A DNA stretch of 64,000 nt from Haloglycomyces albus DSM 45210 (lineage in GTDB: Bacteria; Actinomycetota; Actinomycetes; Mycobacteriales; Micromonosporaceae), in the NCBI RefSeq assembly GCF_000527155.1, contig NZ_AZUQ01000001.1:1919615-1983614 (forward strand). Reading direction: 5' to 3'. A model generated the notes under the pieces. That model was not told the origin of the DNA, ran no database searches, and saw only the letters and a program-made list of their open reading frames with translations. The position numbers and the translations under genes are program-made. Positions 51,074-55,438 of this stretch are shown piece after piece; position 1 is the first letter of the stretch; every line of letters begins with the position of its first letter.

Positions 51074-51373
51074 GTGTCGCCACTTGATGTCAGTGACAAT
51101 ACCCCCGTGTCTACAGTTAGTGTTTCCGAACTCAAAGTCGCCATCAACTCCGCACTCGAGCAGGTGCGCGGTGGTCAAGCAGCGATCAACGCCGCCTCAC
51201 AGAACATCGAAGAGGCCCAGAGCCGACTCGGGGCCGTCTGCAATGGAACCGGGCATCAGTCGGTCGTCAATGCGCAAGCCGCGCTCGCACAAGCGGCGAG
51301 TGAGCTGGAACAGTCGTTGGCCGCCACCAACGCCGCCACCGAACAAGCCGAAACCTACGCCACCAGCCTCTAG
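51074..51373 (+). CDS. Small helical protein of the FtsK cassette (WXG100-like shape)
   Basis: A 99-residue protein with two long helices: VSELKVAINSALEQVRGGQ onward to about residue 55, and a second from about 64 to 96, joined by CNGTGHQ. Size and the helix-turn-helix hairpin resemble WXG100 proteins of type VII secretion, but the W-x-G is replaced by G-T-G, so homology is unproven. The start is taken as GTG 51074; GTG 51107 is an alternative that would begin at the first helix. Eight bases separate it from the next gene. First gene of a four-gene cassette. Confidence 0.65.
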   Translation: MSPLDVSDNTPVSTVSVSELKVAINSALEQVRGGQAAINAASQNIEEAQSRLGAVCNGTGHQSVVNAQAALAQAASELEQSLAATNAATEQAETYATSL

Positions 51374-51381
51374 GAGCCACA

Positions 51382-52146
51382 GTGGATATCGCCACCCTCG
51401 CCACCCGCCTCCATCAATTGATCGACGAGCTGCCCCAAGCCGGTCTTGCCGCCGCCGACGAGCACCTGGAAACCGCGTACTGCGAACTGACCGAGGCAGC
51501 AAGGGAATCCAGCCATGACCCCGGTCTGACAAGTCTGAGCCAAAGTCGCCATCACCTGGACGCCGGTCGCCGGAAACTCGTCGAGACGGTCCAGTCGATT
51601 GAGGAATACCTCGCGGCGATCGGGGTCGGGATCGCCGCGACGGCTCCGGCTCAAACCGCGAAGCGACAGGACGCCTCGGATCAAGTCGCTCCGGATCCCG
51701 ACGCCTGGTGGCTGGACCGCGTCAGTGAACTGTGCCAACGCAAGGGTCGCCCGAATCCGCACAATCTGACCCCGACTCGTTTGGTCAACGAGTTGACCTA
51801 CAGCGCCGTGGACGTCAACGCCGGACGCTATTGGCAGCAATTGCGTGACACCCGCCCGGCCACGGCCGCCAAACTGCCCGCGCTCACCTGGCCGACCGTA
51901 CGGAGCCTCACCGAAGACCGACTGGGAGGGGCGCCAAACGACAAGCAGCTCAAAGAACTCGCCAAGCGCACCCACAGTCCACTGAAGTCCCTGCTGCCCG
52001 GAGTGGAGCTGGACGACGTCCATACCAGCCTCGCACGAGCATGCAACCACGTCGACGAGTCGACCGCCTCCGACCCGGCCACCCATGCCGTGCTCGGCCC
52101 CGCGCTCATCGCCGAACTGCACCGCCTCACCGCCGCCACCCGCTGA
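51382..52146 (+). CDS. FtsK cassette protein 2, function unknown
   Basis: A 254-residue protein beginning MDIATLATRLHQLIDELPQ. Residues 1-80 are helical and contain regularly spaced charged residues; a TAPAQTAKRQDASDQ linker follows; the second half (about 105-250) is a predicted helical domain with WWLDRVSELCQRKG. No signal peptide or membrane segment is visible and no domain is recognised. Tight spacing on both sides (8 and 21 bases) places it in one operon with the ATPase gene. Confidence 0.65.
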   Translation: MDIATLATRLHQLIDELPQAGLAAADEHLETAYCELTEAARESSHDPGLTSLSQSRHHLDAGRRKLVETVQSIEEYLAAIGVGIAATAPAQTAKRQDASDQVAPDPDAWWLDRVSELCQRKGRPNPHNLTPTRLVNELTYSAVDVNAGRYWQQLRDTRPATAAKLPALTWPTVRSLTEDRLGGAPNDKQLKELAKRTHSPLKSLLPGVELDDVHTSLARACNHVDESTASDPATHAVLGPALIAELHRLTAATR

Positions 52147-52167
52147 ACCAGCAAAGGACCAGCCCCT

Positions 52168-54768
52168 ATGACCGCATGGAAACGACGTCTCGTCTCGGCC
52201 GCCGCCCGCCGCATCGCCACTCTACGAGCACAATCCCGCGACCTCACCGGGCGTCGCCGCGCGGTGCTCCAGACCGTCGGAGCCGAATCCGCCGCCGTGA
52301 CGGAGGAAGGGGAACGCACGCTCGACAGTCTGGCCGACATTCATCGGCGTGCCAAGACCACCATGCGGCAGCGCCACGTCGAACAACTGCGGCATCAAGC
52401 CGACCGGGTCCATCGTCTGGCCGCCCTACACAGTGGGGGCGCGGCAGGGTATCCCTGGAACATCTGGGAGTCCGACGCCGACCACTATCCCGCGACGGCA
52501 CCGCTCTACCGCGTGGGACACCTCAACGGGCCACATCGCCTGCCCGCGCTCGTAGAACTTCTCGACCGCTCCCACCTCAGTCTCGCTCCCGACGCGATCC
52601 CGGCATTGCCGGGCCTCCTGCTGCGCGCCATCGGATCGGCCAAACCAGGTGACGTGCGTATACATATTTACGATCCCGACTCGCTCGGGCAGACCCTCGC
52701 CGCCTTCGCCCCCTTGACCCGCTCCGGCCTCCTGCGCTTCATCGGTCCGGCCGGACTACGCGACACCCTCGACGAATTGGTCGAACACGTTCGTCGCGTC
52801 AATGCCGACGTACTCGGGGGAGAATACCAATCCCTCGCCGAACTGACCGCGCACAATGGAACCGGGCCCGAACCGCGCCATCTCCTGGTTCTGCACAAGG
52901 CGGGAATCCACGGTTGGAACGAGCACGATGACGCACAACTCAAACGCCTGCAACGCACGGGAATCCCCGCCGGAGTCACTCTCCTGATCGCCGGAGAGTC
53001 GCTGGAGGGTACTCCGGTTCTCGATTCCACCTCGTACAGCTCACTGCCCAAAGCCGCGCTGACATTGGACGCACCGCCTCCCACCCAACTGATCACCGAC
53101 ACCGCCCGAACCGTCGGCGAGCGATACGATTCCGGCGACGAACTGCACCTGAACGATCTACTGCCGCGCGACTACGGCACCAAACAGTCCACCCACGGGC
53201 TGTCGGTCCCCATCGGACGCCGCCGCGACGGCTCCATCGCCGCCCTAACGTTGGGAGACAACCCCCCACACGCTCTCATCGGAGGGCCGTCCGGATCGGG
53301 GAAAACGAATCTCATCTACACCTGGATCGCCGGTCTGACCACCGGTTACGACCCCTCCGAACTCGAGATGCACCTCCTCGACTTCAAAGAAGGCGTTTCC
53401 TTTGCCCGATACGCCGAAGGACGCCGCGATCGAACCTGGCTGCCCCACGCCAAACTCGTCGGCATCAACATCAACGACGACCGCGAATTCGGTCTGGCAC
53501 TCCTGCGACACCTCAAAGAAGAACTGCGCCGCAGAGCCGACGCCGCCAAACACCACGAAGCCACCAAACTCTCCGAACTGCGCGCCGCCGATCCCGGCAA
53601 CACCTGGCCCCGCATCGTCGCCGTCATCGACGAATTCCAGATACTGCTGGAAAACCGCGACAGCGTCACCGACGAAGCCGTAGCGCTCCTCGACGACCTC
53701 GCCCGCCGGGGACGCAGCCAAGGCATTCACCTCATTCTCGCCAGTCAGGACGTCGCCGGAATCGAGGCCCTCTGGGGACGCCCCAGCCTTGTGGCCCAAT
53801 TCAGCCTACGCATCGCCCTGCCTAAAGCCCGCCGAGTCCTCGCCGACAACAATCACGCCGCCGACACGCTCCCCAAACACCACGCCATCATCAATTCCGA
53901 ATCCGGCCAGAACGACGCCAATCACGTCATCGCCCTTCCCAACGCCGGAGCCAACGACACCTGGCAACCGATCCAGGAACAACTCTGGAACCAACACCCC
54001 CACAGCGGGCCACCACGCCTGTTCGACGGTGAGGACACCCCCAGACTTCCCACCGCCCCGCCACCGAAACAACACGTCTACGTCGGTCAAACCATCGACG
54101 TCCGCCAACGACCGGCGACCTTCGACCTGCGCCGCTCACCCGGCCGCAACCTCGCCGTCATCGGGACCCGCACCGCCGACGCACACGACCTGATCGCCAC
54201 CACCGCCCTCCATCTGCGCGACGCCACGGTCAACATCTGCAGCTGCGATATCGACAGCGACTCACACGCCATGCGGCTCGCCGAAACCCTGGAAAACCAC
54301 GGCACCACCGTCGCCTGGTACGAACAACTACACGACCTCGTCAACGAGAGACATCGACGTCCCGCTACGACAACGGTGAACCTCCTCTACGCCGTCGACG
54401 CCATCTCGACTCGACTGGACCACCGTGACCGAGAAGCGTTCCGCACCCTGCTGGTCGACGGGCCGGAAAACCACGTGCACACCGTCGGCTGGTGGCGATC
54501 GGTGCCACGCCTCCGAGACGACCTCGGCGGATACAATCCCCGATTCGACGCCATCGACGCCTGGGTCGCACTCGACTGCCACGGCAACGACCTCGCTCCA
54601 CTGACCCCGGGAAACCACACACCACAGTGGTATCCACGGACTCGGCGCGCCCTGTACTTCGACCGCGCCCACGATCGCGAACCCGGTGTCATCATTCCCT
54701 ACGACCCGCACGAACAGCTCCACGAGGCACCCGCCAGTCCACTGATCGAGGTCACCCATGCGCAATAG
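52168..54768 (+). CDS. FtsK/SpoIIIE-type ATPase with flanking degenerate ATPase-like domains
   Basis: An 866-residue soluble ATPase. Residues 1-100 are an arginine-rich coiled coil; about 110-330 look like a degenerate ATPase-like domain; about 340-600 are the active FtsK/HerA-type core with Walker A IGGPSGSGKTN near 375, Walker B IVAVIDEFQ near 488 and the sensor segment LILASQDVAG; about 640-866 resemble another ATPase-like unit lacking a Walker A. No membrane helix is seen, unlike FtsK or EccC. A role in pumping DNA or protein is expected; the small helical neighbour hints at protein. Its stop overlaps the next gene by 11 bases. Confidence 0.85.
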   Translation: MTAWKRRLVSAAARRIATLRAQSRDLTGRRRAVLQTVGAESAAVTEEGERTLDSLADIHRRAKTTMRQRHVEQLRHQADRVHRLAALHSGGAAGYPWNIWESDADHYPATAPLYRVGHLNGPHRLPALVELLDRSHLSLAPDAIPALPGLLLRAIGSAKPGDVRIHIYDPDSLGQTLAAFAPLTRSGLLRFIGPAGLRDTLDELVEHVRRVNADVLGGEYQSLAELTAHNGTGPEPRHLLVLHKAGIHGWNEHDDAQLKRLQRTGIPAGVTLLIAGESLEGTPVLDSTSYSSLPKAALTLDAPPPTQLITDTARTVGERYDSGDELHLNDLLPRDYGTKQSTHGLSVPIGRRRDGSIAALTLGDNPPHALIGGPSGSGKTNLIYTWIAGLTTGYDPSELEMHLLDFKEGVSFARYAEGRRDRTWLPHAKLVGININDDREFGLALLRHLKEELRRRADAAKHHEATKLSELRAADPGNTWPRIVAVIDEFQILLENRDSVTDEAVALLDDLARRGRSQGIHLILASQDVAGIEALWGRPSLVAQFSLRIALPKARRVLADNNHAADTLPKHHAIINSESGQNDANHVIALPNAGANDTWQPIQEQLWNQHPHSGPPRLFDGEDTPRLPTAPPPKQHVYVGQTIDVRQRPATFDLRRSPGRNLAVIGTRTADAHDLIATTALHLRDATVNICSCDIDSDSHAMRLAETLENHGTTVAWYEQLHDLVNERHRRPATTTVNLLYAVDAISTRLDHRDREAFRTLLVDGPENHVHTVGWWRSVPRLRDDLGGYNPRFDAIDAWVALDCHGNDLAPLTPGNHTPQWYPRTRRALYFDRAHDREPGVIIPYDPHEQLHEAPASPLIEVTHAQ

Positions 54769-55438
54769 TTACGTCAGTGCCGTCAGCGACTACCTGGAAC
54801 TCGACGGAGTCACCCAGGAGGAAGCCACCACGCTGCACGACGAATACGAGCGCGACCGCACCCGTGTCGAAAACCGGATACACCAGGCACAACAGCGAGA
54901 ACAAGCCGCTCGGCGCGACCTTGCCGAAGCCGAAGAACTCCAAGACGACCTCGACCGCCGTACGACCAGGCTGTGGGACCGGCTCGCCGCCCTCGTGGGC
55001 CCCGGCACAACCGGAGACTTCCCGCAAGCCGTGCATCGATTCAACGCCCCGTCAAGTGAACCGACACGACTCCGCGCCGACCTCGCCGATCTCGAAAGAC
55101 TGGTCGCCACCGCCAAACGCGGCGAGCTTCCCTTCGAACCACCCGTGATGAGCAGCATCGTAGCGGGAGTCATCGGTCTCTGCTGCGGAAGCGCGGGGGT
55201 ATACGGCGCGCTCGCGCTCCTGGGCATCGACAGTTCCAGTCCGATGTGGAATGCTTTGCAGCCGGCCGCCGCGACCGTATGCGTCCTCGCGAGCGCCGGG
55301 GTCGCGCCGATCGCCTGGGGAATGTGGCAAGCGGCCTGGTATCGAGTGCGGCCGCGACCGCAAGGTGTACTACTGGCGGTGAGTCTCGCCGCGGTGGCCA
55401 TAGTCGTCGGTTCGGTCCTTTTCCTACGCGGGTATTAA
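54758..55438 (+). CDS. Coiled-coil membrane protein of the FtsK cassette
   Basis: A 226-residue protein. Residues 20-85 form a highly charged coiled coil (DEYERDRTRVENRIHQAQQ and on), and three hydrophobic segments follow near 130-155, 165-188 and 203-223. It overlaps the ATPase gene by 11 bases, so translation is coupled. With the only membrane anchor in the cassette it could dock the soluble ATPase at the cell membrane through the coiled coil. No family is recognised. Confidence 0.7.
   Translation: MRNSYVSAVSDYLELDGVTQEEATTLHDEYERDRTRVENRIHQAQQREQAARRDLAEAEELQDDLDRRTTRLWDRLAALVGPGTTGDFPQAVHRFNAPSSEPTRLRADLADLERLVATAKRGELPFEPPVMSSIVAGVIGLCCGSAGVYGALALLGIDSSSPMWNALQPAAATVCVLASAGVAPIAWGMWQAAWYRVRPRPQGVLLAVSLAAVAIVVGSVLFLRGY

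Follow-up and report, generated by a model that had tools for sequence, protein, structure and literature searches.

A four-gene cassette with a soluble EccC-like ATPase and WXG100-like hairpins in Haloglycomyces albus: a possible type VII-like trafficking system

Gene content and layout of the cassette

The 64,000-nucleotide stretch of Haloglycomyces albus DSM 45210 analysed here (the window) covers positions 1919615-1983614 of a 3.54 Mb single-contig genome. At 51074-55438 it contains a cassette of four adjoining plus-strand open reading frames (ORFs), termed A, B, C, and D. Exactly these four ORFs of the window's ORF list were also chosen by a codon-usage gene finder. Spacers of 8 bp and 21 bp separate A from B and B from C, and C overlaps D by 11 bp. 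With modest confidence, we read the cassette as a stand-alone system of type VII-like trafficking, in which a soluble motor acts on hairpin-tagged proteins.

Gene A (51107..51373; this and all features below lie on the plus strand) encodes a helical hairpin, classed as WXG100-like from profile similarity and an alignment of 32 relatives. An earlier start at 51074 would give 99 amino acids and the in-frame GTG at 51107 gives 88; the latter is probably the true start, because relatives begin with MSNISVEELK/MTSISVAELK. The protein ends in the tail Y-A-T-S-L-COOH (51356..51370), a putative targeting signal according to the tail statistics given below. Gene B (51382..52146) encodes 254 amino acids, comprising an N-terminal hairpin akin to A (approximately residues 1-81) that ends in Y-L-A-A-I-G, and a helical C-domain (residues 106-253; predicted local distance difference test, pLDDT, of 81 in the model). 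Searches for the family of this C-domain in Pfam, Foldseek, and VIA-align gave nothing above noise, the VIA list having mostly tested the hairpin and the C-domain not having been folded separately. Gene C (52168..54768) encodes an ATPase of 866 amino acids. Gene D (54758..55438) encodes a coiled-coil protein of 226 amino acids with C-terminal membrane helices, a possible adaptor or anchor as judged by hydropathy and profile comparison.

A preliminary description of this DNA had reported four tight or overlapping plus-strand genes and an ATPase with a single intact core between two degenerate regions, and both points were borne out. Its hairpin protein of 99 residues is indeed a helical hairpin, probably of the shorter length. 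Its coiled-coil protein with three membrane helices kept the coiled coil; the window copy of D has two transmembrane helices with clear scores, and close relatives have three.

The motor protein C

The AlphaFold model of C (mean pLDDT 69, moderate) consists of a long N-terminal helix or coiled coil (residues 1-88; 52168..52431) followed by three RecA-like domains. Walker A and B are kept in the central domain only, and the flanking RecA-like domains have no intact motifs. Walker A reads GGPSGSGKT (residues 372-380; 53281..53307) and the Walker B region spans residues 483-490 (53614..53637), with VIDEF at approximately 486-490. The key residues of both (G376, G378, and K379; D488, E489, and F490) are invariant among the aligned relatives. 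Degenerate domain 1 occupies approximately residues 125-300 (52540..53067; alignment and model). The degenerate C-terminal domain, at approximately residues 650-845 (54115..54702), is a candidate receptor for hairpin tails on the basis of the model and its fold match. No transmembrane segment was found in C by hydropathy. In many Glycomyces species, C carries near residue 120 (L009, L013, and L014) a low-complexity insert rich in Ser, Pro, and Ala, of up to approximately 200 residues, which separates the N-terminal helix from degenerate domain 1.

Several comparisons place C near EccC. The Pfam match is FtsK_SpoIIIE (E 8e-19, residues 345-529), and the nearest NCBIfam model is EccCa at 88 bits (cut-off 509), FtsK reaching approximately 10 bits. 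The top match of a PDB sequence search was EccC of Thermomonospora curvata. For the whole chain, the best Foldseek match was EccC 4nh0 (E 3.7e-26), and the core and C-terminal degenerate domain align with EccC ATPases 2 and 3. A degenerated-ATPase DUF domain described in EccC5 (PMC11154593) is comparable to degenerate domain 1. In a motor-core tree, the placement of EccC ATPase1 relative to the C family was not resolved (support 52/20), and the kinship of C to EccC therefore rests on scores and fold. No assigned role of C as a known FtsK paralogue was found, so the candidate system proposed earlier stands on this point.

WXG100-like hairpins and their carboxyl tails

A profile of A matched WXG100 with a probability of 71% (E 3.6e-5, hhalign), the N-terminal hairpin of B with 82%, and a second hairpin of Pseudonocardiaceae-like loci with 96% (genome names ending in "-like" are tentative assignments). 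Coiled-coil controls in the same profile-profile comparison reached at most 7%. The E-value comes from a single-pair comparison, and such values are optimistic, so the kinship of A to WXG100 is suggestive. Against PF06013, A scored 12.8 bits, below the cut-off of 27.3, and the alignment of 32 relatives contains no conserved W-x-G motif.

Among A-type hairpins, which were gathered with an iterative profile, the pattern [YFW]xxx[hydrophobic](G)-COOH, in which a single glycine may follow the hydrophobic residue, was present in 107 of the 112 hairpins that lie at a protein C-terminus. The strict pattern was found in 5 of 767 other predicted proteins longer than 110 amino acids at the same loci. 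Among the 32 relatives of A, 29 carry [YFW]xxx[LI] and five carry [YHF]xxx[DE], the latter being present in 12 of 17 canonical WXG100 proteins of related genomes. In B and most toxin fusions, the motif is internal and marks the end of the hairpin. By these comparisons, A is a WXG100-like hairpin with an aromatic-x-x-x-Leu/Ile-COOH tail, unlike the classical YxxxD/E.

A-type hairpins were also observed in apparent integrative conjugative elements (L225, L234, and L235); TraB/FtsK-like genes in the last two match the motor profile weakly.

Conservation, co-occurrence, and independence from ESX

A similarity search with C returned 23 contigs with relatives, nearly all with the complete four-gene set. 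The syntenic order A-B-C-D recurs in Glycomyces, Stackebrandtia, Phytomonospora, and Actinorhabdospora, and in the latter three it stands among different flanking genes. The cassette also occurs in Micromonospora-type and Pseudonocardiaceae-like genomes and, more loosely, in Frankia-like and Jiangella-like genomes. Judged by this synteny, it is more than a chance arrangement, and the expectation that the neighbors of the ATPase accompany it in other genomes was confirmed. By whole-genome searches, the ATPase is encoded in 51 of 394 genomes at the level of the class and in 105 of 249 at that of the order, among the latter every listed genome of the window's family. The window genome itself has three copies, located in the window, at 128.5 kb, and at 1125.6 kb. 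Relatives on plasmids show approximately 32% identity.

An A-type hairpin lies within approximately 2 kb of the ATPase at 23/24 window-type, 21/21 Pseudonocardiaceae-like, 7/7 Frankia-like, and 6/7 f53/f51 loci. Most Pseudonocardiaceae-like loci carry a second hairpin, and the Frankia-like hairpin lies downstream of D. At the genome level, hairpins were found in 102 of the 249 genomes; each of these 102 is one of the 105 ATPase genomes, and none has the hairpin only (the lists were compared by eye); as the sample consists of related genomes, these 102 co-occurrences are not independent events. Three ATPase genomes (G440, G432, and G043) have no A-type hairpin. At 58 of 89 loci, the gene after that of the ATPase codes for a protein with two or more transmembrane segments, and the two genes often overlap by 4 bp. 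The version of D at f53/f51 loci has one membrane helix.

EccB and EccD are both absent from 12 of 32 ATPase-positive genomes, including single-contig Frankia-like and Jiangella-like chromosomes, and the system is therefore independent of the ESX membrane complex. The window genome matches EccB and EccD only at 797-800 kb, a region remote from the window (1919-1984 kb), in line with the earlier statement that neither gene is nearby.

Two other arrangements were observed. At Jiangella-like loci L068-L070, a C-D pair lies beside trxA, with two coiled-coil proteins downstream and no A-type hairpin detected. At L065 and L074, distant soluble ATPases stand beside apparent true WXG100 hairpins, with the W present, and coiled-coil proteins.

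Hairpin-toxin fusions as possible cargo

Hairpins fused to toxin domains occur in genomes that encode the soluble ATPase (G474, loci L237 and L242; G574, L243; G503, L244). They comprise hairpin-DddA-like fusions (E 1.4e-17, 8e-28, and 2.1e-18) and a hairpin-EndoU fusion (E 1.5e-8), and at L244 an Imm1 immunity gene (E 1.4e-22) follows the fusion. A Helicobacter plasmid encodes a distant soluble ATPase next to a hairpin of the WXG type, a WHH/colicin-DNase protein, and an immunity protein of the SUKH family. These arrangements point to the hairpins as trafficking tags of polymorphic toxins. A hairpin protein in L246 has a C-terminal domain that looked TNT-like by eye; Pfam gave no match, and this reading was rejected.

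Proposed mechanism and alternative explanations

EccC ATPase3 binds the EsxB tail, and a similar recognition step can be proposed for the cassette. A and the N-terminal hairpin of B would present the aromatic-x-x-x-hydrophobic signal at the end of helix 2, which in A is the very C-terminus, and C would bind it, probably via its C-terminal degenerate domain. A and B may form the core co-substrate pair, like EsxA/EsxB. C would then drive the unfolding or threading of hairpin-tagged proteins, and D, by way of its coiled coil, might hold the motor at the membrane. In some genomes, hairpin-tagged toxins encoded elsewhere (DddA-like and EndoU) are the likely cargo. The link to type VII secretion made in the preliminary description thus holds, through an EccC-like motor and WXG100-like hairpins. 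A bolder form of the proposal is a distinct export system of filamentous actinobacteria, with a soluble EccC-like motor, D as adaptor, and an aromatic-xxx-L/I-COOH signal, which would run in parallel to ESX, persist even where ESX is absent, and deliver its own hairpin-tagged toxins. We hold this form tentatively, at slightly less than even likelihood.

The analysis shows the conservation and architecture of the genes, the tail motif, the co-occurrence, the independence from EccB/EccD, and the toxin fusions; binding of the tail by the ATPase, the part played by D, and membrane transport are what we infer. Several observations weigh against a trafficking system of this kind. No toxin-fusion gene adjoins an ATPase, and related genomes of these families that bear toxins mostly also encode canonical ESX, so ESX may export those toxins. 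Frankia-like genomes have a single hairpin and no toxin fusion, and toxin delivery therefore cannot be the sole role. Paralogues 2 and 3 of the window genome belong to clades that consist of C-D only, with no adjacent hairpin, and the same holds for two other clades. The homology of D across lineages is only partly supported: its profile matches the paralogue D within the window's family at 94.6%, the Pseudonocardiaceae-like protein at 57%, and the f53/f51 protein at less than 1%. In Pseudonocardiaceae-like loci, the D position holds a coiled coil of 120-140 amino acids with no membrane helix, so there is no known membrane component there. The suggestion that the membrane anchor is a separate protein fits the window cassette but not these loci.

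The Pseudonocardiaceae-like cassette, without a transmembrane helix, is also compatible with a rather unlikely alternative, namely that C is a cytoplasmic, chaperone-linked remodeling motor which takes hairpin complexes apart or loads them together with Hsp70/Clp-type chaperones, with nothing exported and the membrane part of D optional. Hsp70 and J-domain genes immediately precede the cassette in f53/f51 loci, and a Rhodococcus plasmid carrying C, D (one transmembrane helix), A, and a hairpin fusion has Hsp70, a TPR protein, and GrpE upstream. Taken together, the loci with Hsp70 upstream of the soluble ATPase, accompanied by J-domain or GrpE/TPR genes, are L131-L137, L239, and L071. The window genome's paralogue 3 is approximately 3 kb from dnaK-grpE-dnaJ, and a Clp-like gene, named by eye, flanks the cassette in Micromonospora-type loci. 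These neighbors suggest substrate unfolding and also support a purely cytoplasmic motor. However, the three transmembrane helices in D of most lineages argue against this alternative, and the toxin fusions with an immunity gene are difficult to account for unless hairpin proteins leave the cell or enter another compartment.

The preliminary description had also raised DNA translocation and defense, neither of which was borne out. It is very unlikely that C is a DNA translocase for chromosome segregation or conjugation, comparable to SffA/SmeA or TraB, for which D would serve as the septal membrane anchor. SffA/SmeA offers a precedent of an FtsK-like protein with a small membrane partner, and the central motor of C alone superposes equally well on the FtsK motor (Z 26). 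However, a Pfam scan gave no match to the FtsK gamma domain in C up to E 1, the sequence and whole-chain fold favor EccC, and hairpins and toxin fusions would be left unexplained. An anti-phage conflict system akin to the CoCoNuT/TerY-P-associated EssC-like ATPase modules appears highly improbable. The ATPase architecture and WXG100-like partners do resemble those modules (PMC11090510), and a Caballeronia plasmid relative sits amid VWA, CARF, kinase, and phosphatase genes. However, no such genes were seen among the scanned window flanks, and the presence of the ATPase in every sampled genome of the window's family is unlike typical defense islands. PADLOC gave no system-specific set; its matches were confined to the FtsK domain (mad8/SspH) and to weak similarities of coiled coils, and the assignment to a defense system was rejected.

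Relation to known systems

The closest relatives are soluble modules. The CoCoNuT paper describes, in an extension of CoCoNuT type III-A that amounts to a "minimal type VII" module, EssC-like ATPases that lack a transmembrane helix, begin with a coiled coil, and have three ATPase domains, the central one alone being active. They are encoded beside two WXG100-like proteins, and the paper predicts secretion by "a different mechanism" for this module (PMC11090510). A stand-alone form is attributed to Anantharaman et al. 2012, as cited in PMC11090510. C shares each of these ATPase features, and the paired hairpins have counterparts in A with the B hairpin, or A with the second hairpin of Pseudonocardiaceae-like loci, a likeness by profile without the motif. 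The cassette differs in being actinobacterial and stand-alone, in gene D (a coiled coil with 0, 1, or 3 transmembrane helices), in the aromatic-xxx-L/I carboxyl tail, and in its near-universal presence in whole families. In contrast to the CoCoNuT-associated form, no VWA, TerY-P, kinase, phosphatase, or CARF genes were seen in the scanned flanks. A Helicobacter pylori pan-genome study reported a "WXG100 secretion system" (HP0062/HP0066) with a WXG100 protein and FtsK, which also has a DnaK homologue and a nuclease (PMC4978471). The window cassette is an actinobacterial variant of the soluble EssC-like ATPase/WXG100 kind, and to call it an undescribed system, as was done initially, is too strong, since such operons had been noted earlier (PMC11090510, PMC4978471). 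Descriptions of the actinobacterial cassette, gene D, the YxxxL/I carboxyl tail, or the toxin fusions were not found in the literature searched, mostly without subscription papers.

Membrane-bound systems are more distant. Like the type VII secretion system (T7SS) T7SSa/ESX (EccB-EccC-EccD-EccE-MycP), the cassette has an EccC-like motor with degenerate RecA domains, a signal after hairpin helix 2, and hairpin-toxin fusions. However, C is soluble and shorter, with three RecA-like domains rather than four, whereas ESX EccC is membrane-anchored by N-terminal transmembrane helices; moreover, the cassette lacks EccB/EccD, its hairpin lacks W-x-G, and its tail is YxxxL/I rather than YxxxD/E. All systems in the T7SSa-j survey of Garrett et al. 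2024 have a membrane-bound ATPase, and T7SSc-T7SSj share with the cassette an EccC/EssC relative and a WXG100 protein but differ by this membrane-bound ATPase and its four NTPase domains (PMC11217815). FtsK/SpoIIIE/TraB translocases share the motor core fold; C differs from them in that it has no gamma-domain match, no N-terminal membrane domain, and hairpin partners.

If the trafficking reading is true, Micromonospora-like, Glycomyces, Amycolatopsis-like, and Frankia-like bacteria have a second type VII-like system, which has escaped notice because of its soluble motor and of hairpins that score under WXG100 cut-offs. A-B-C-D would then be a minimal set for studying EccC-type substrate recognition without EccB/D/E, and aromatic-xxx-L/I at the hairpin end would be a simple rule to find cargo, including interbacterial toxins.

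Neighboring genes and dispersed hairpin cassettes

The cassette is flanked by genes for PhoH, a polysaccharide deacetylase, and a transglycosylase (Pfam scan), and by ffh and an amidohydrolase gene (read from ORF translations). Elsewhere in the window genome, approximately a dozen further A-type hairpins occur in repeated cassettes scattered over the genome, and in some cases a glycine-rich segment precedes a C-terminal hairpin. In the repeated cassettes L186-L192, no Pfam family was found above cut-off. They are located at approximately 1107-1111, 1255-1260, 1814-1820, 819-822, 942-947, and 505-508 kb of the contig and contain, in addition to A-type hairpins, an "IIPVGxSLG" protein of approximately 200 amino acids, a glycine-rich protein with a C-terminal hairpin, a "MPELLGTLTW" protein of approximately 83 amino acids, and "MPVRYMPIGTFNLG" proteins.

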